Assembly (NCBI GenBank): GCA_012521335.1
Contig: JAAYMM010000064.1
Coordinates: 1 to 40,132, forward strand
DNA length: 40,132 nucleotides
Source of the DNA: Bacillota bacterium
GTDB taxonomy: Bacteria > Bacillota > Limnochordia > Darwinibacteriales > Darwinibacteriaceae
Reading direction: 5' to 3'
The stretch's first letter is position 1. Each line of letters begins with the position of its first letter. Below, piece after piece: positions 8,064 through 15,242 of the stretch. The translations under genes were made by a program, and so were the position numbers. A model generated the notes under the pieces. The model saw only the letters and a program-made list of their open reading frames with translations. It searched no databases and was not told the DNA's origin.

Positions 8064-8091
8064 TTGACGATCACAAGCAGAAGTTGATAAT
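8064..8091 (+). promoter_or_regulatory. Sigma-A-type promoter of the Sec-peroxiredoxin
   Basis: -35 TTGACG at 8064-8069, a 16-base spacer and -10 GATAAT at 8086-8091. It is correctly placed for either peroxiredoxin start. The -10 box lies inside the Fur-family operator at 8085-8099. Confidence 0.78.
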
Positions 8092-8099
8092 TAAAATCA
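8085..8099 (+). promoter_or_regulatory. Fur/PerR-type operator, 7-1-7
   Basis: TGATAAT-T-AAAATCA is an imperfect inverted repeat matching the Fur-family 7-1-7 pattern (left half 7/7 to the Fur form, right half 5/7). It covers the -10 box, so a bound repressor would block transcription. A closely similar copy precedes sod at 10365-10379. Fur, PerR or another family member cannot be distinguished from the site alone. Confidence 0.68.
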
Positions 8100-8222
8100 T
8101 TACGAAGGGGGTCGCGGATTATGAAAGAGTTTGGCCCCGGCTGCCAGCGTCCTAAGGGACAGCCCAAGCAGGCGGTGGAAATGGCTGTTGTACAGGAAGC
8201 ACCGAAGGGAGAGGAGAGAAAG

Positions 8223-8834
8223 ATGATCCAGGTTGGCAAACCAGCCCCCATGTTCAGCGCTCCGGCCTTTTACCAGGGCAAGTTCGTGGAGGTGGACTTG
8301 GCAGAGTTCAAAGGTAATTGGATCATGCTGTGCTTTTACCCAGGTGATTTTACCTTCGTCTGAGCTACAGAAGTCTCAGCAGTTGCTGAGAAATACCCTG
8401 AGTTTGAAGAACTTGGTGTCAAAGTCTTTTCCATCAGTGTGGACAGTGTCTATGTGCATAAGATGTGGAATGACCATGAGCTGAAGAAGATGCTGCGCGA
8501 CCAGGATATCCCCTTCCCAATGCTGTCCGACCAAAACGGCAATATCGGCCGGCTCTACGGAGTGTATGATGAAGAGTCGGGCACGGAAACCCGCGGACGC
8601 TTTTTGATCGATCCAGACGGCATAGTCCAAGCCTTCGAAGTAATGACACCGCCTGTGGGACGCAACGTCGCGGAAACCCTCAGGCAGATCAAAGCCTTCC
8701 AGCTCGTCAGGGCCAGCAAGGGTACGCAGGTGACCCCCGCCGGCTGGCAGCCAGGCAAAGCCACCCTCAAACCAGGCCCTGGGCTGGTGGGCAATGTGTG
8801 GCAGGAGTGGAACCCAGCCAAAGACCTGGGTTAG
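8223..8834 (+). CDS. Selenocysteine-containing peroxiredoxin (in-frame UGA, residue 47)
   Basis: Thiol-type peroxidase of the AhpC/Prx family that reduces hydrogen peroxide and organic peroxides. The frame is interrupted only by TGA 8361-8363, which falls exactly at the peroxidatic position: residues before it read CFYPGDFTFV and after it ATEVSAVAEKY, where relatives read FTFVC(P/A)TE. Both sides are in one frame and together give a full-length Prx of 203 residues with Sec at 47, the usual position. A stem-loop follows the TGA (8374-8391). The usual resolving-Cys motif VCPAGW reads VTPAGW, so this looks like a one-selenol enzyme needing an external reductant. ATG 8223 has GAGGAG upstream and a family-like start (MIQVGKPAP). 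In-frame ATG 8121 also has a GAAGGGGG site and would add 34 residues. The flavoprotein gene lies about 65 bases downstream with no terminator between. Confidence 0.93.
8374..8391 (+). promoter_or_regulatory. Bacterial SECIS-like stem-loop
   Basis: TCTCAGC (8374-8380), loop AGTT, GCTGAGA (8385-8391): a perfect 7-bp stem with a G in the second loop position. The loop starts 17 bases after the UGA, inside the window where bacterial SECIS elements bind SelB. It lies within the coding sequence. Confidence 0.78.
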
Positions 8835-8899
8835 TAGGGATAAACGCCAGCACAATGGGCATGCTACCCAAGATAAACGCACTTTAAGGAGAGTTGATC

Positions 8900-10045
8900 T
8901 TGGGCGAGACCATCCTCATTCTCGGAGGAGGCACGGCGGGAGTCGCTGCCGCCAACGTGCTGGCTGACGTTCTACCTTCAGGATACCAGTTAGTCTTGGT
9001 GGACCGCATCCCGGTCCACCTTTTTTTGGCCTCTCTCCCCCTGCTGATCGTGGGTCGCCGCCGGCCCCAGCAGCTCACCCGCGCCCTTTCGCTGCTCCAA
9101 GGCCGCGGCCTTAGGTTCATCCAGACCGAGGTGGAAGGACTTGACCTCCCCCACAGGGTGGCTCTGACTACAGCAGGTAGCTTGTCTTACGACAAGTTAA
9201 TCGTAGCCTTGGGTGCCGAGAGGGTGGAAGACCACCTTCCCGGCCAAAAAGAGTGGGCCTTTAACCCTTTCAGTTGGCAGGAAGCTCAAGCCCTCAGAGA
9301 GCGCTTGGCGCGGCTGCGCAGTGGGCGGCTTGTGCTGTTCATTTCCAGCCTGCCTTTTACCGGCGAGGTGGCGCCCTATGAGATCATGCTGCTTCTCCAT
9401 GATTACTACCGCAGGCGCGGCCTGCGCCGCCAGATCGAGTTGGTCTTGATCACCCCCGAGGAGCGTCCTTTCAGTTTCGCCCCGCCACAGATCAGCAAGC
9501 AGACAGAAGAACTCCTGTCAGACGCAGGGATTAGGCTTCTTGCCGGGCGCAGCGTTCAGGGCATCTCTAAAGCGGGGGAAGTGCTCCTGGATGGCGGCAG
9601 GCTGCCAGCGGACCTGGTTTTAGCCATCCCCCACCATCAAGTCCCCGCCTGCCTGCGCGGTTCACCCTTGGTAGGAGCCGAAGGTTGGGTGGAAGTGGAT
9701 CCCCGCAGTCTAGAAACCCGCTGGCCTGGTGTCTATGCCCTGGGAGATGTGGTGGGAATTAAGCTGCCCACAGGGCACTGGCTGCCCAAAGTGGGCTTTT
9801 TCGCCCATTACCAGGCAGAGGTGGCTGCGCGCAACTTGGCCCTCCTGCTCAGCGGCAAGGATGCGGCCTTCCAGTTTCTAGGCGGAGCTGCAGGGGCCTC
9901 CATGCTCACCGCGTTCCGGCGAGGTTGCTTCGTCTCCCTCAATGCCTACGCCAATCCCCCTGCCATGACCGTTTCTAGGCCAAATCCCTTTGCTTACCTG
10001 CTGAAGACCATTTTTGAAAAATACTGGTTGACAGCCTGGTTCTAG
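8900..10045 (+). CDS. FAD/NAD(P)-dependent oxidoreductase, SQR/NDH-2-like
   Basis: Flavoprotein of about 381 residues resembling sulfide:quinone oxidoreductase and type II NADH dehydrogenase. The N-terminal FAD-binding motif is ILGGGTAGVAAANVL. A LPLLIVGRRRPQQLTR stretch and DKLIVALGAE follow, and the second FAD motif is VYALGDVVGIKLP with LPKVGFFAHYQAEVAARN near the end, typical of the SQR group. The catalytic cysteines are not clearly in SQR positions: the visible Cys residues are in PACLRG and RRGCFVS. So the electron donor is open, and NAD(P)H or sulfide are both possible. TTG 8900 is eight bases from AAGGAG and is preferred over TTG 8894. It directly follows the Sec-peroxiredoxin, which suggests that it could supply reducing equivalents; that is inference. 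Confidence 0.82.
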   Translation: MGETILILGGGTAGVAAANVLADVLPSGYQLVLVDRIPVHLFLASLPLLIVGRRRPQQLTRALSLLQGRGLRFIQTEVEGLDLPHRVALTTAGSLSYDKLIVALGAERVEDHLPGQKEWAFNPFSWQEAQALRERLARLRSGRLVLFISSLPFTGEVAPYEIMLLLHDYYRRRGLRRQIELVLITPEERPFSFAPPQISKQTEELLSDAGIRLLAGRSVQGISKAGEVLLDGGRLPADLVLAIPHHQVPACLRGSPLVGAEGWVEVDPRSLETRWPGVYALGDVVGIKLPTGHWLPKVGFFAHYQAEVAARNLALLLSGKDAAFQFLGGAAGASMLTAFRRGCFVSLNAYANPPAMTVSRPNPFAYLLKTIFEKYWLTAWF

Positions 10046-10444: not shown

Positions 10445-10461
10445 AGCAAGGAGTGACCAAT

Positions 10462-11079
10462 ATGTTTGAGCAAGTGAAACTGAGCTACGACTTCGCCGCA
10501 TTGGAACCCCACATTGACGAGCTGACCATGCAGACTCACTACGGCAAGCACCATGCAGCCTACACCAACAACCTGAACGGAGCCTTGGAGAAGCTGCCTG
10601 ACCTGGCCGGCAAGAGCATTGAAGAAATCCTGACCAATCTAGAAACCATCACTGATCCCGCCTTGAGGACCACGGTCCGCAACAACGGCGGAGGTTACTA
10701 TAACCACAACCTGTATTTCCAGATTCTCAGCCCCCAAGGCGGACAACCTCCCCAAGGCAGACTGGCTGAGCAGATTCAAGCCGATTTCGGTTCCTTTGAA
10801 GAACTGGTACAAAGACTAACGGCAACCGCAGCTTCCGTGTTCGGGTCGGGCTGGGCCTGGCTTTCCAAAGACCCCTCCGGTAAACTGGTCATCACCAGTA
10901 CACCCAACCAGGACAATCCCCTCATGACGCACGGTGGCCAGCTAACCCCCATTCTGGGCATCGACGTCTGGGAACACGCCTATTACCTCAAGTACAAGAA
11001 CGTGCGCGCCGATTACCTCAAAGCGATCTTCAACGTGCTTGATTGGGCTGAGGTAGCCCGACTATACGAGCAGGCCTAA
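10462..11079 (+). CDS. sodA: Superoxide dismutase, Fe/Mn type
   Basis: Cytosolic enzyme converting superoxide to peroxide and oxygen, 205 residues, full length. The metal ligands are visible: His26 in MQTHYGKHHAAY, a second His in GGYYNHNLYF near residue 80, and Asp and His in the signature DVWEHAYYLKY near 165. Fe versus Mn cannot be decided reliably by eye. ATG 10462 is chosen because AAGGAG ends eight bases upstream; GTG 10453, which overlaps that site, is unlikely. It stands alone between two terminators, with its own promoter, a Fur-family operator and a leader dyad. Its peroxide product would be removed by the Sec-peroxiredoxin upstream, which shares the operator type. Confidence 0.96.
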   Translation: MFEQVKLSYDFAALEPHIDELTMQTHYGKHHAAYTNNLNGALEKLPDLAGKSIEEILTNLETITDPALRTTVRNNGGGYYNHNLYFQILSPQGGQPPQGRLAEQIQADFGSFEELVQRLTATAASVFGSGWAWLSKDPSGKLVITSTPNQDNPLMTHGGQLTPILGIDVWEHAYYLKYKNVRADYLKAIFNVLDWAEVARLYEQA

Positions 11080-13609: not shown

Positions 13610-15181
13610 CTAGAATGCCAAGGGCGAGGACGCCTGGGCTCTAGGCACAAAGAGGATGTACTGGTAGTAGTCGGTGGTGACGCCTGCAGTTGGTGCCACC
13701 TCATTGAGCTTCCAGATTAGGTTCTGGGTGAAAGGTGACTCGGGTCCATCCAGTTTGACCAAGAGCGGCTGCTCCCCCGAGAGGTCCGCCAAAATCCCCG
13801 CGCTGCTGCGGTAGGTATCCAAGGGAACGGGCTGCGTTCCGTCTTGACTGATGCGCTCACTGCCACTGTAGACCAGCACCAGGCTGAGAATGGACCCTGC
13901 GAATCCTTCCATTTGGTCGATCCGCGAAGCCAGCCAGTCCACCCCCAGCTGCTGGCCTTGGAAGACGTGGTTCAAACCCCACTGCCCGAAATACTTCTCC
14001 CCTCCCTCGGGAGAAACTTGCCTGAGGAGATTCGCGTACATGGCCTGCTCGCGTCCGTTGTTCCATTCTGTGCCGCTGACGGTCTGGAGCTCTAGCCCAG
14101 CCAGCAGGCTGGAGAGCACCAGCTCGACCTCGCCCCACAGCCTGCCCAAGGCCTCCTTGACCTCCTCCGTTTCCAGCTCCACCAGCAGATCAGAGGTGAA
14201 ACGCACGGCTTCGGTGTAGTTGAGCCTGAGCTCCCCTCGCAGGACCTGACCAATCTGCGCCAGCTTGGTTGCTGCCCAGAGTCTGTCATCCAGCCCGTCC
14301 AAAAGGTGCTGCAGGTAACGGAAGGCCAAAAGTGGCTGATGCTCTATATCCAATCCGATCAGGCGCAGCTCTTCGCCTGCGGGCAGCGCCTGCGCCAGTC
14401 GGCGAACGTGCTGCCAGTGGTTGTAGTTCTCTCGAGTGAAGAAATAGGTTCCTCTCACCTGGGAAAAGGCGAACTCCAGCAGCGCTTCATCTCCCGTGGC
14501 CACATATTCTCTGAGAAAGCCCACAATGCTCGGGGAGAGCTCCAAGAGGAGACTGCGCACTCCGCCCTCCTGCACCAAAAACTGCAGAAGCGCGGATTCC
14601 AGCTCCTGGTTGCATGCGGCCCCATGACTTTCTCCCACCAGAAAGATGCGATAGGCAGGCAGCTCCTTGGCCAAATTCTCGGTCAGATCTTGCCAGCTGA
14701 AAACGGGCCAGCTCCAAGCCTCTAGATACGCACGAAGCTCCTGGAGCGCAGCTTGATCGCAGGACTCTTCCGCTGAAAACACCAGTTTCTCCTGGGCCCA
14801 GCGGGCCAGTTCCGGGATTTCTGTTACCACTTCTATGACCCTGCGGCCGCTCAAACCCACATTCTCCGGCGGATGGAAACTGAGAAACAGTTCCTGCAGG
14901 GAAGCAGCCTCCTGTTCGGTCTCTGTGAGCACCAGATTCACCTGCAGCTGGCCAGCTGGCGTGCTGAAGACATAGTTTCTGAGCACAACCACCTGTACTC
15001 CCAGGCGCACCGAGAACTGCTCGAGATCGCTGGGGGAAGCCAAGTAATCACCGATGAGAACCCAGCCTTCCGGAAGGGAAGATGGGTCGAGGAGGGTGCC
15101 TTCGCCATTTGATCCGGCCGCGGCACTTGACCACAGGCCTAGTACGCACATGAGCACGAAAACAAGAACAATTCGCTTCAT
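13610..15181 (-). CDS. Secreted erythromycin-esterase/ChaN-like protein
   Basis: 523-residue exported protein. The signal peptide is clear: MKR, a hydrophobic core VLVFVLMCVLGLW and a small-residue cleavage region SSAAAG. Residues about 25-165 are an unrecognised domain. From about 175 the sequence resembles the EreA/ChaN/TIKI superfamily: FLVGESHGAACNQE (the GE-x-HG motif), a LLLELS strand, and RLIGLDIEHQ. This fold includes erythromycin esterases, haem-binding ChaN and metalloproteases, so the activity is open; resistance should not be assumed. The start is ATG 15181, with GAGAGGG upstream; the longer frame to 15223 is not used because the promoter lies at 15214-15242. It is divergent from mrfA. 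Confidence 0.66.
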   Translation of the reverse strand: MKRIVLVFVLMCVLGLWSSAAAGSNGEGTLLDPSSLPEGWVLIGDYLASPSDLEQFSVRLGVQVVVLRNYVFSTPAGQLQVNLVLTETEQEAASLQELFLSFHPPENVGLSGRRVIEVVTEIPELARWAQEKLVFSAEESCDQAALQELRAYLEAWSWPVFSWQDLTENLAKELPAYRIFLVGESHGAACNQELESALLQFLVQEGGVRSLLLELSPSIVGFLREYVATGDEALLEFAFSQVRGTYFFTRENYNHWQHVRRLAQALPAGEELRLIGLDIEHQPLLAFRYLQHLLDGLDDRLWAATKLAQIGQVLRGELRLNYTEAVRFTSDLLVELETEEVKEALGRLWGEVELVLSSLLAGLELQTVSGTEWNNGREQAMYANLLRQVSPEGGEKYFGQWGLNHVFQGQQLGVDWLASRIDQMEGFAGSILSLVLVYSGSERISQDGTQPVPLDTYRSSAGILADLSGEQPLLVKLDGPESPFTQNLIWKLNEVAPTAGVTTDYYQYILFVPRAQASSPLAF

Positions 15182-15213
15182 TGCCCTCTCCCTTTGTGAA
15201 TTTTTGTGCATAC

Positions 15214-15242
15214 AGTATAACATGCCCCCAGACTGCTCTCAA
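15214..15242 (-). promoter_or_regulatory. Promoter of the Ere-like gene
   Basis: On the minus strand, -35 TTGAGA (15237-15242), a 17-base spacer and -10 TATACT (15214-15219). Its -35 box is nine bases from the mrfA -35 box, so the two divergent promoters are back to back. Confidence 0.72.

Follow-up and report, generated by a model that had tools for sequence, protein, structure and literature searches.

Selenocysteine (Sec)-containing peroxiredoxins have been known since that of Eubacterium acidaminophilum was first described in 2001 (Sohling et al. 2001, as cited in PMC8533274 and PMC13188914), and the peroxiredoxin of C. sticklandii has been annotated as a long form with Sec84 in a chain of 240 residues (PMC3091704). 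The bacterial SECIS element (bSECIS) has been characterized by a loop of 3-9 nt, a stem of 4-16 bp, a distance of 16-37 nt from the UGA, a G in the first two loop positions and an energy of at most -7.5 kcal/mol (PMC13188914). The locus described here lies in the window, that is, the whole stretch of 40,132 nucleotides of DNA that was analysed (contig JAAYMM010000064.1, assembly GCA_012521335.1), and with it an uncultured Bacillota lineage gains a clear PrxU. That the gene encodes a real selenoprotein of the known PrxU family is the best explanation of the locus as a whole, and we hold it with very little reservation.

The gene, prxU, occupies 8121-8834 on the + strand and encodes the long form of a selenocysteine peroxiredoxin, with 237 residues, Sec81 at the TGA of 8361-8363 and a TAG stop codon at 8832-8834. 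A sequence-only reading had recognized a selenoprotein peroxiredoxin here at 8223-8834, with the TGA at the peroxidatic residue (FTFV-U-ATE) of an otherwise intact frame. When only TAA and TAG are taken as ends, the frame extends from 8091 to 8831, and the TGA is indeed the sole in-frame stop within it. The end of the gene had also been placed correctly, but its start was set 34 codons too late; 8223 is rejected as the conserved start since the ATG there is internal and in frame with the upstream ATG at 8121, at which the conserved frame begins. In phmmer searches, AhpC/Prx proteins of solved structure align with their catalytic Cys on the TGA, and the motif P-x-x-x-T-x-x-U is present as PGDFTFVU. 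Six further TGA-interrupted frames within the window have no recognizable redox motif around the TGA. The TGA at 8361-8363 is almost certainly read as Sec, a reading of the sequence supported jointly by the PrxU profile, the Sec machinery of the genome, the clade-wide TGA and a SECIS element with compensatory changes. It rescues a gene that is split in two by the standard code, although the worry that annotation breaks prxU may be partly out of date because a curated PrxU family model exists.

With the TGA read as Sec, the protein scores 367.5 bits against the PrxU equivalog among the NCBIfam profiles (NF040737), for which the cut-off is 270. AhpC and the remaining NCBIfam peroxiredoxin models all score under their own cut-offs, the others far below. 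The domains found are AhpC-TSA and 1-cysPrx_C, the latter as a weak match. In an AlphaFold2 (AF2) model, the core has a pLDDT mostly above 90 and is matched best in the PDB by Prx1-4 and AhpC (Z up to 25, rmsd 1.8-2.6 at the top), the linker of residues 15-31 is disordered with a pLDDT below 50, and the first ten residues average 65.

PrxU is found in 19 of the 73 genomes of the class, each with one TGA. The TGA also stands at this codon in all of the best 80 loci from GTDB (80/80), which span Bacillota, Chloroflexota, delta-proteobacterial lineages, Spirochaetota, Nitrospirota, Cloacimonadota and KSB1. After addition of an evenly drawn sample of 398 genomes of the phylum, TGA occupies the peroxidatic position in 126 of 126 distinct Sec sequences of the PrxU clade (103 long and 23 short), and TGC or TGT is found at the same codon in 11 Cys homologues, which form a clade of their own. 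The query carried Cys at the peroxidatic position, and the search was therefore not biased to TGA. When 136 rows were placed on a tree, a fully supported branch (100/100) divided the 11 Cys rows from the Sec rows, and thus no Cys version lies within the PrxU clade as sampled. An error of sequencing or assembly, by which the TGC or TGT of a Cys peroxiredoxin became TGA, might be thought of for a draft genome of 93 contigs, but it is rejected as untenable because the same codon is TGA in over a hundred independent assemblies of relatives; the covariation in the SECIS element also argues against it, as does a separate Cys AhpC in the same genome (C49:180-737), and we give it a negligible probability. 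The refutation that the sequence-only reading had itself proposed thus failed. A pseudogene, in which the TGA would be a true stop ending the function of a former peroxidase, accords with the meaning of TGA in translation table 11. However, purifying selection is found on both sides of the codon (pN/pS 0.13 upstream of the TGA and 0.21 downstream), the frame has no further stop and the identical TGA recurs across phyla, so that this explanation is likewise rejected, with hardly any probability left to it.

Downstream of the TGA, a hairpin at 8374-8391 (+ strand), UCUCAGC-AGUU-GCUGAGA, has a stem of 7 bp and a tetraloop at 8381-8384, the loop beginning 17 nt past the TGA. The folding energy is -15.9 kcal/mol (z -3.1) for the 50 nt counted from the TGA and -9.9 kcal/mol for the hairpin by itself, and the element agrees with each of the published bSECIS constraints (PMC13188914). 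Among the 103 long sequences, paired bases that both fall on third codon positions change together: pair 12-27 occurs as U-A, C-G and G-C, pair 15-24 as A-U and G-C, and the bases that open and close the loop (18-21) as A-U and G-C. These three rank first to third of 190 third-position (wobble) pairs by mutual information, with 0.78, 0.57 and 0.38 bits versus 0.16 for the next; the sequences are related and the counts are not independent, the control being the other third positions of the same sequences. Synonymous differences (pS) amount to 0.31 per site in the SECIS codons versus 0.72 and 0.79 on either side, or about 40%. In about half of the short PrxU sequences (L145-L165, with loops such as CATA), the same stem is not formed at the same offset, and the SECIS of these sequences may lie at a different offset or have a different shape.

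The genes to which the sequence-only reading had pointed as a check, selA, selB, selD and tRNA-Sec, are all present above curated cut-offs, so that the second refutation it had proposed, a genome without Sec machinery, failed as well. In the genome, a draft of 1.72 Mb that is 95% complete and in which the machinery was sought by family searches, there is one tRNA-Sec (71 bits, above the Rfam cut-off; confirmed by ARAGORN, anticodon TCA). It adjoins selB (347 bits) and selA (503 bits), themselves next to each other, on contig C5, and selD (394 bits) is found on contig C54. The argument for the machinery rests on the cut-offs, since the selB, selD and tRNA searches match widely at low score in control genomes and exceed the cut-off in only a few of these. 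Within the class, selA is found in 17 of 19 genomes with PrxU versus 17 of 54 without it (p = 1.2e-5, a statistic that ignores kinship). In two PrxU genomes of the class, G043 (75% complete) and G048 (94%), neither selA nor selB above cut-off was found; one missing contig could explain this gap, because the drafts are fragmented and selA, selB and tRNA-Sec are clustered in the genome of the window. The selD frame (C54:7536-8444, L017) has an in-frame TGA of its own, and the selenophosphate synthetase of this genome is, judged from that frame, probably also a selenoprotein.

From these components we infer how Sec would be inserted in the cell and how the enzyme would act. At the UGA of 8361-8363, SelB bound to the hairpin at 8374-8391 would supply the ribosome with Sec-tRNA-Sec, which SelA would form using selenophosphate provided by SelD. 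The selenolate of Sec81, in the pocket formed by P-x-x-x-T-x-x-U, would then attack H2O2 or an alkyl hydroperoxide to give a selenenic acid, which thiols would reduce. The C-terminal resolving Cys, which stands in a V-C-P motif in AhpC, is absent from every PrxU inspected, where V-T-P, A-T-P or a similar sequence is found instead; the window protein reads V-T-P, with Thr205 (8733-8735, + strand) at this site in the alignment, and Thr, Ala, Met or Ile stands there in 85 of the 85 distinct relatives counted. Because this Cys is absent, the reductant would be either an outside thiol, such as thioredoxin, or another Cys of PrxU, for which the Cys of an N-terminal G-C-x-R-P motif would be the best candidate in the long form. 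The separate AhpC of the same genome (C49:180-737, L169) is of the ordinary Cys type and has a C-terminal resolving Cys.

The G-C-x-R-P motif belongs to a conserved N-terminal extension of 34 codons (8121-8222, + strand), in which it reads G-C-Q-R-P (8139-8153, + strand) with Cys8 encoded at 8142-8144. The pattern G-C-Q-R-P-K has no second occurrence in the genome. In the first, unselected set of 85 distinct sequences, all 85 have an in-frame Cys no more than 45 residues ahead of the core, and 84 have it in a motif like G-C-x-R-P. Of the motif residues, G occurs in 101, R in 98 and P in 102 of the 103 long forms, although these forms were chosen by a looser Cys motif and the conservation of C and P is partly by construction; in alignment A1 (51 rows), Cys8 and Pro11 are invariant. 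The motif is under purifying selection with a pN/pS of 0.19, versus 0.49 for the linker, and the extension, which is about 29 to 45 codons long depending on the species, stays in frame despite these differences. The NF040737 model itself seems to include the extension, since the match of a short-form query starts at profile position 35. The long clade marked by the tail Cys has tree support of 100/99. Within this clade, L143 and L144 have no Cys extension and L141 ends at a contig edge. L036 (SCVKP) and L162 (GCVQP) have Cys-bearing extensions outside it, so the tail may have undergone more than one gain or loss.

Cys8 is the best candidate in the long form for a relocated resolving Cys. On the other hand, PrxU may work as a 1-Sec enzyme, whose selenenic acid is reduced directly by thioredoxin or a small thiol, with Cys8 serving in redox sensing, oligomer cross-linking or partner binding; this alternative concerns only the resolving step. 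Short PrxU proteins lack the N-terminal Cys as well as the C-terminal one, so that neither is required for PrxU chemistry, and this favours a 1-Sec enzyme together with the disordered linker of the AF2 model, which is a model of a single chain and does not extend to the reach of Cys8 to Sec81 of a neighbouring subunit. That Cys8 is so strictly conserved within the long clade would, however, suit catalysis, and we put the chances of a 1-Sec enzyme at about even.

Both ends of the extension are preceded by sequences resembling a Shine-Dalgarno site on the + strand: AAGGGGGT at 8105-8112 for the upstream start at 8121 (anti-Shine-Dalgarno pairing of -11.3 kcal/mol) and, inside the coding sequence, AAGGGAGAGGAG at 8205-8216 before the in-frame ATG at 8223 (-8.4 kcal/mol), which for the window alone is within chance (p 0.21). 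Across the family, a start codon is found at the first core residue in 100 of 103 long forms (97 of them ATG). The mean pairing energy ahead of this internal start is -10.3 kcal/mol, versus -5.2 for synonymous shuffles of the same codons, and is lower than the mean of the shuffles in 100 of 100; the corresponding values are -3.0 for the remaining ATGs that lie in frame within the core and a mean of -11.0 for the upstream start. Lys-Glu is encoded as AAGGAG in 65 of 75 cases in the stretch of the internal site versus 2 of 27 in the core (p about 1e-13, ignoring kinship). Because this internal Shine-Dalgarno is kept beyond what codon choice would lead one to expect, its presence throughout the family suggests that two isoforms are made, with and without the extra Cys, the short one having 203 residues. 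The internal site is likely to be the older start, still used after an upstream start was gained.

It may even be that translation starts at ATG 8223 alone, the short form with Sec inserted being the sole product, and that the extension is a leader with no role as protein. The strong internal sites across the family and the existence of PrxU proteins without the extension speak for this, as does the Sec47 numbering of the E. acidaminophilum protein, which fits the internal start. It is nevertheless quite improbable, in view of the in-frame G-C-x-R-P in more than 100 sequences across phyla, the low pN/pS of this motif in a frame that survives length changes, the strength of the upstream Shine-Dalgarno and the Sec84 numbering in the C. 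sticklandii annotation (PMC3091704). A fuller version of the two-isoform reading, in which one frame would give both a core enzyme of 203 residues and a form of 237 residues whose G-C-x-R-P Cys replaces the C-terminal resolving Cys, is put forward tentatively, as a rather doubtful though not far-fetched combination; if true, mixed oligomers of the two forms could tune the resolution of the selenenic acid. A literature search on internal initiation and N-terminal resolving Cys in peroxiredoxins found neither described for PrxU.

The genes following prxU on the + strand encode a pyridine nucleotide-disulphide oxidoreductase (8894-10045; Pfam PF07992) and an Fe/Mn superoxide dismutase (10453-11079; Pfam PF02777 and PF00081). 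The former remains next to prxU in the genus and in some of the family, the latter in the genus. This context fits oxidative-stress defence, and the oxidoreductase could be a candidate reductant. In distant lineages the genes 3' of prxU are varied, and the context is therefore uninformative beyond genus and family. A search of viral contigs with the long protein found no relative. Elsewhere in the window, a frame of 537 residues at 13613-15223 on the - strand has no Pfam match.

Comparison with known systems places the window protein among three kinds of peroxiredoxin. It shares fold and active-site layout with the typical 2-Cys enzymes (AhpC, Prx1-4), which are its best PDB matches, but it has Sec for the peroxidatic Cys, its C-terminal resolving Cys is replaced, and the PrxU form stands as a clade apart from their Cys type in the tree. 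The 1-Cys peroxiredoxins (Prx6, yeast Prx1, LsfA) likewise have no C-terminal resolving Cys, and the 1-cysPrx_C domain is matched weakly, although the sequence is nearer to AhpC/Prx1. The SECIS hairpin resembles the bSECIS (PMC13188914) in its 4-nt loop with G second and then U, co-varying first and last loop bases, 7-bp stem, 17-nt spacing and low energy, with no difference found for the window. While the selenium peroxidase family itself is already known, what merits specialist attention is the tail with its Cys and the internal ribosome-binding site that the family conserves. Their comparative value lies in a PrxU without a C-terminal resolving Cys, a large clade of which bears a conserved Cys tail instead, and in a ribosome-binding site retained within the coding sequence; both lead to testable predictions on the turnover of selenium peroxidases that have no classical resolving Cys. 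With the PrxU family (NF040737) the protein has in common the peroxidatic Sec, the P-x-x-x-T-x-x-U motif, a score above the equivalog cut-off and a SECIS after the UGA, nothing speaks against its membership, and the C. sticklandii annotation (PMC3091704) fits a long form with the G-C-x-R-P tail.
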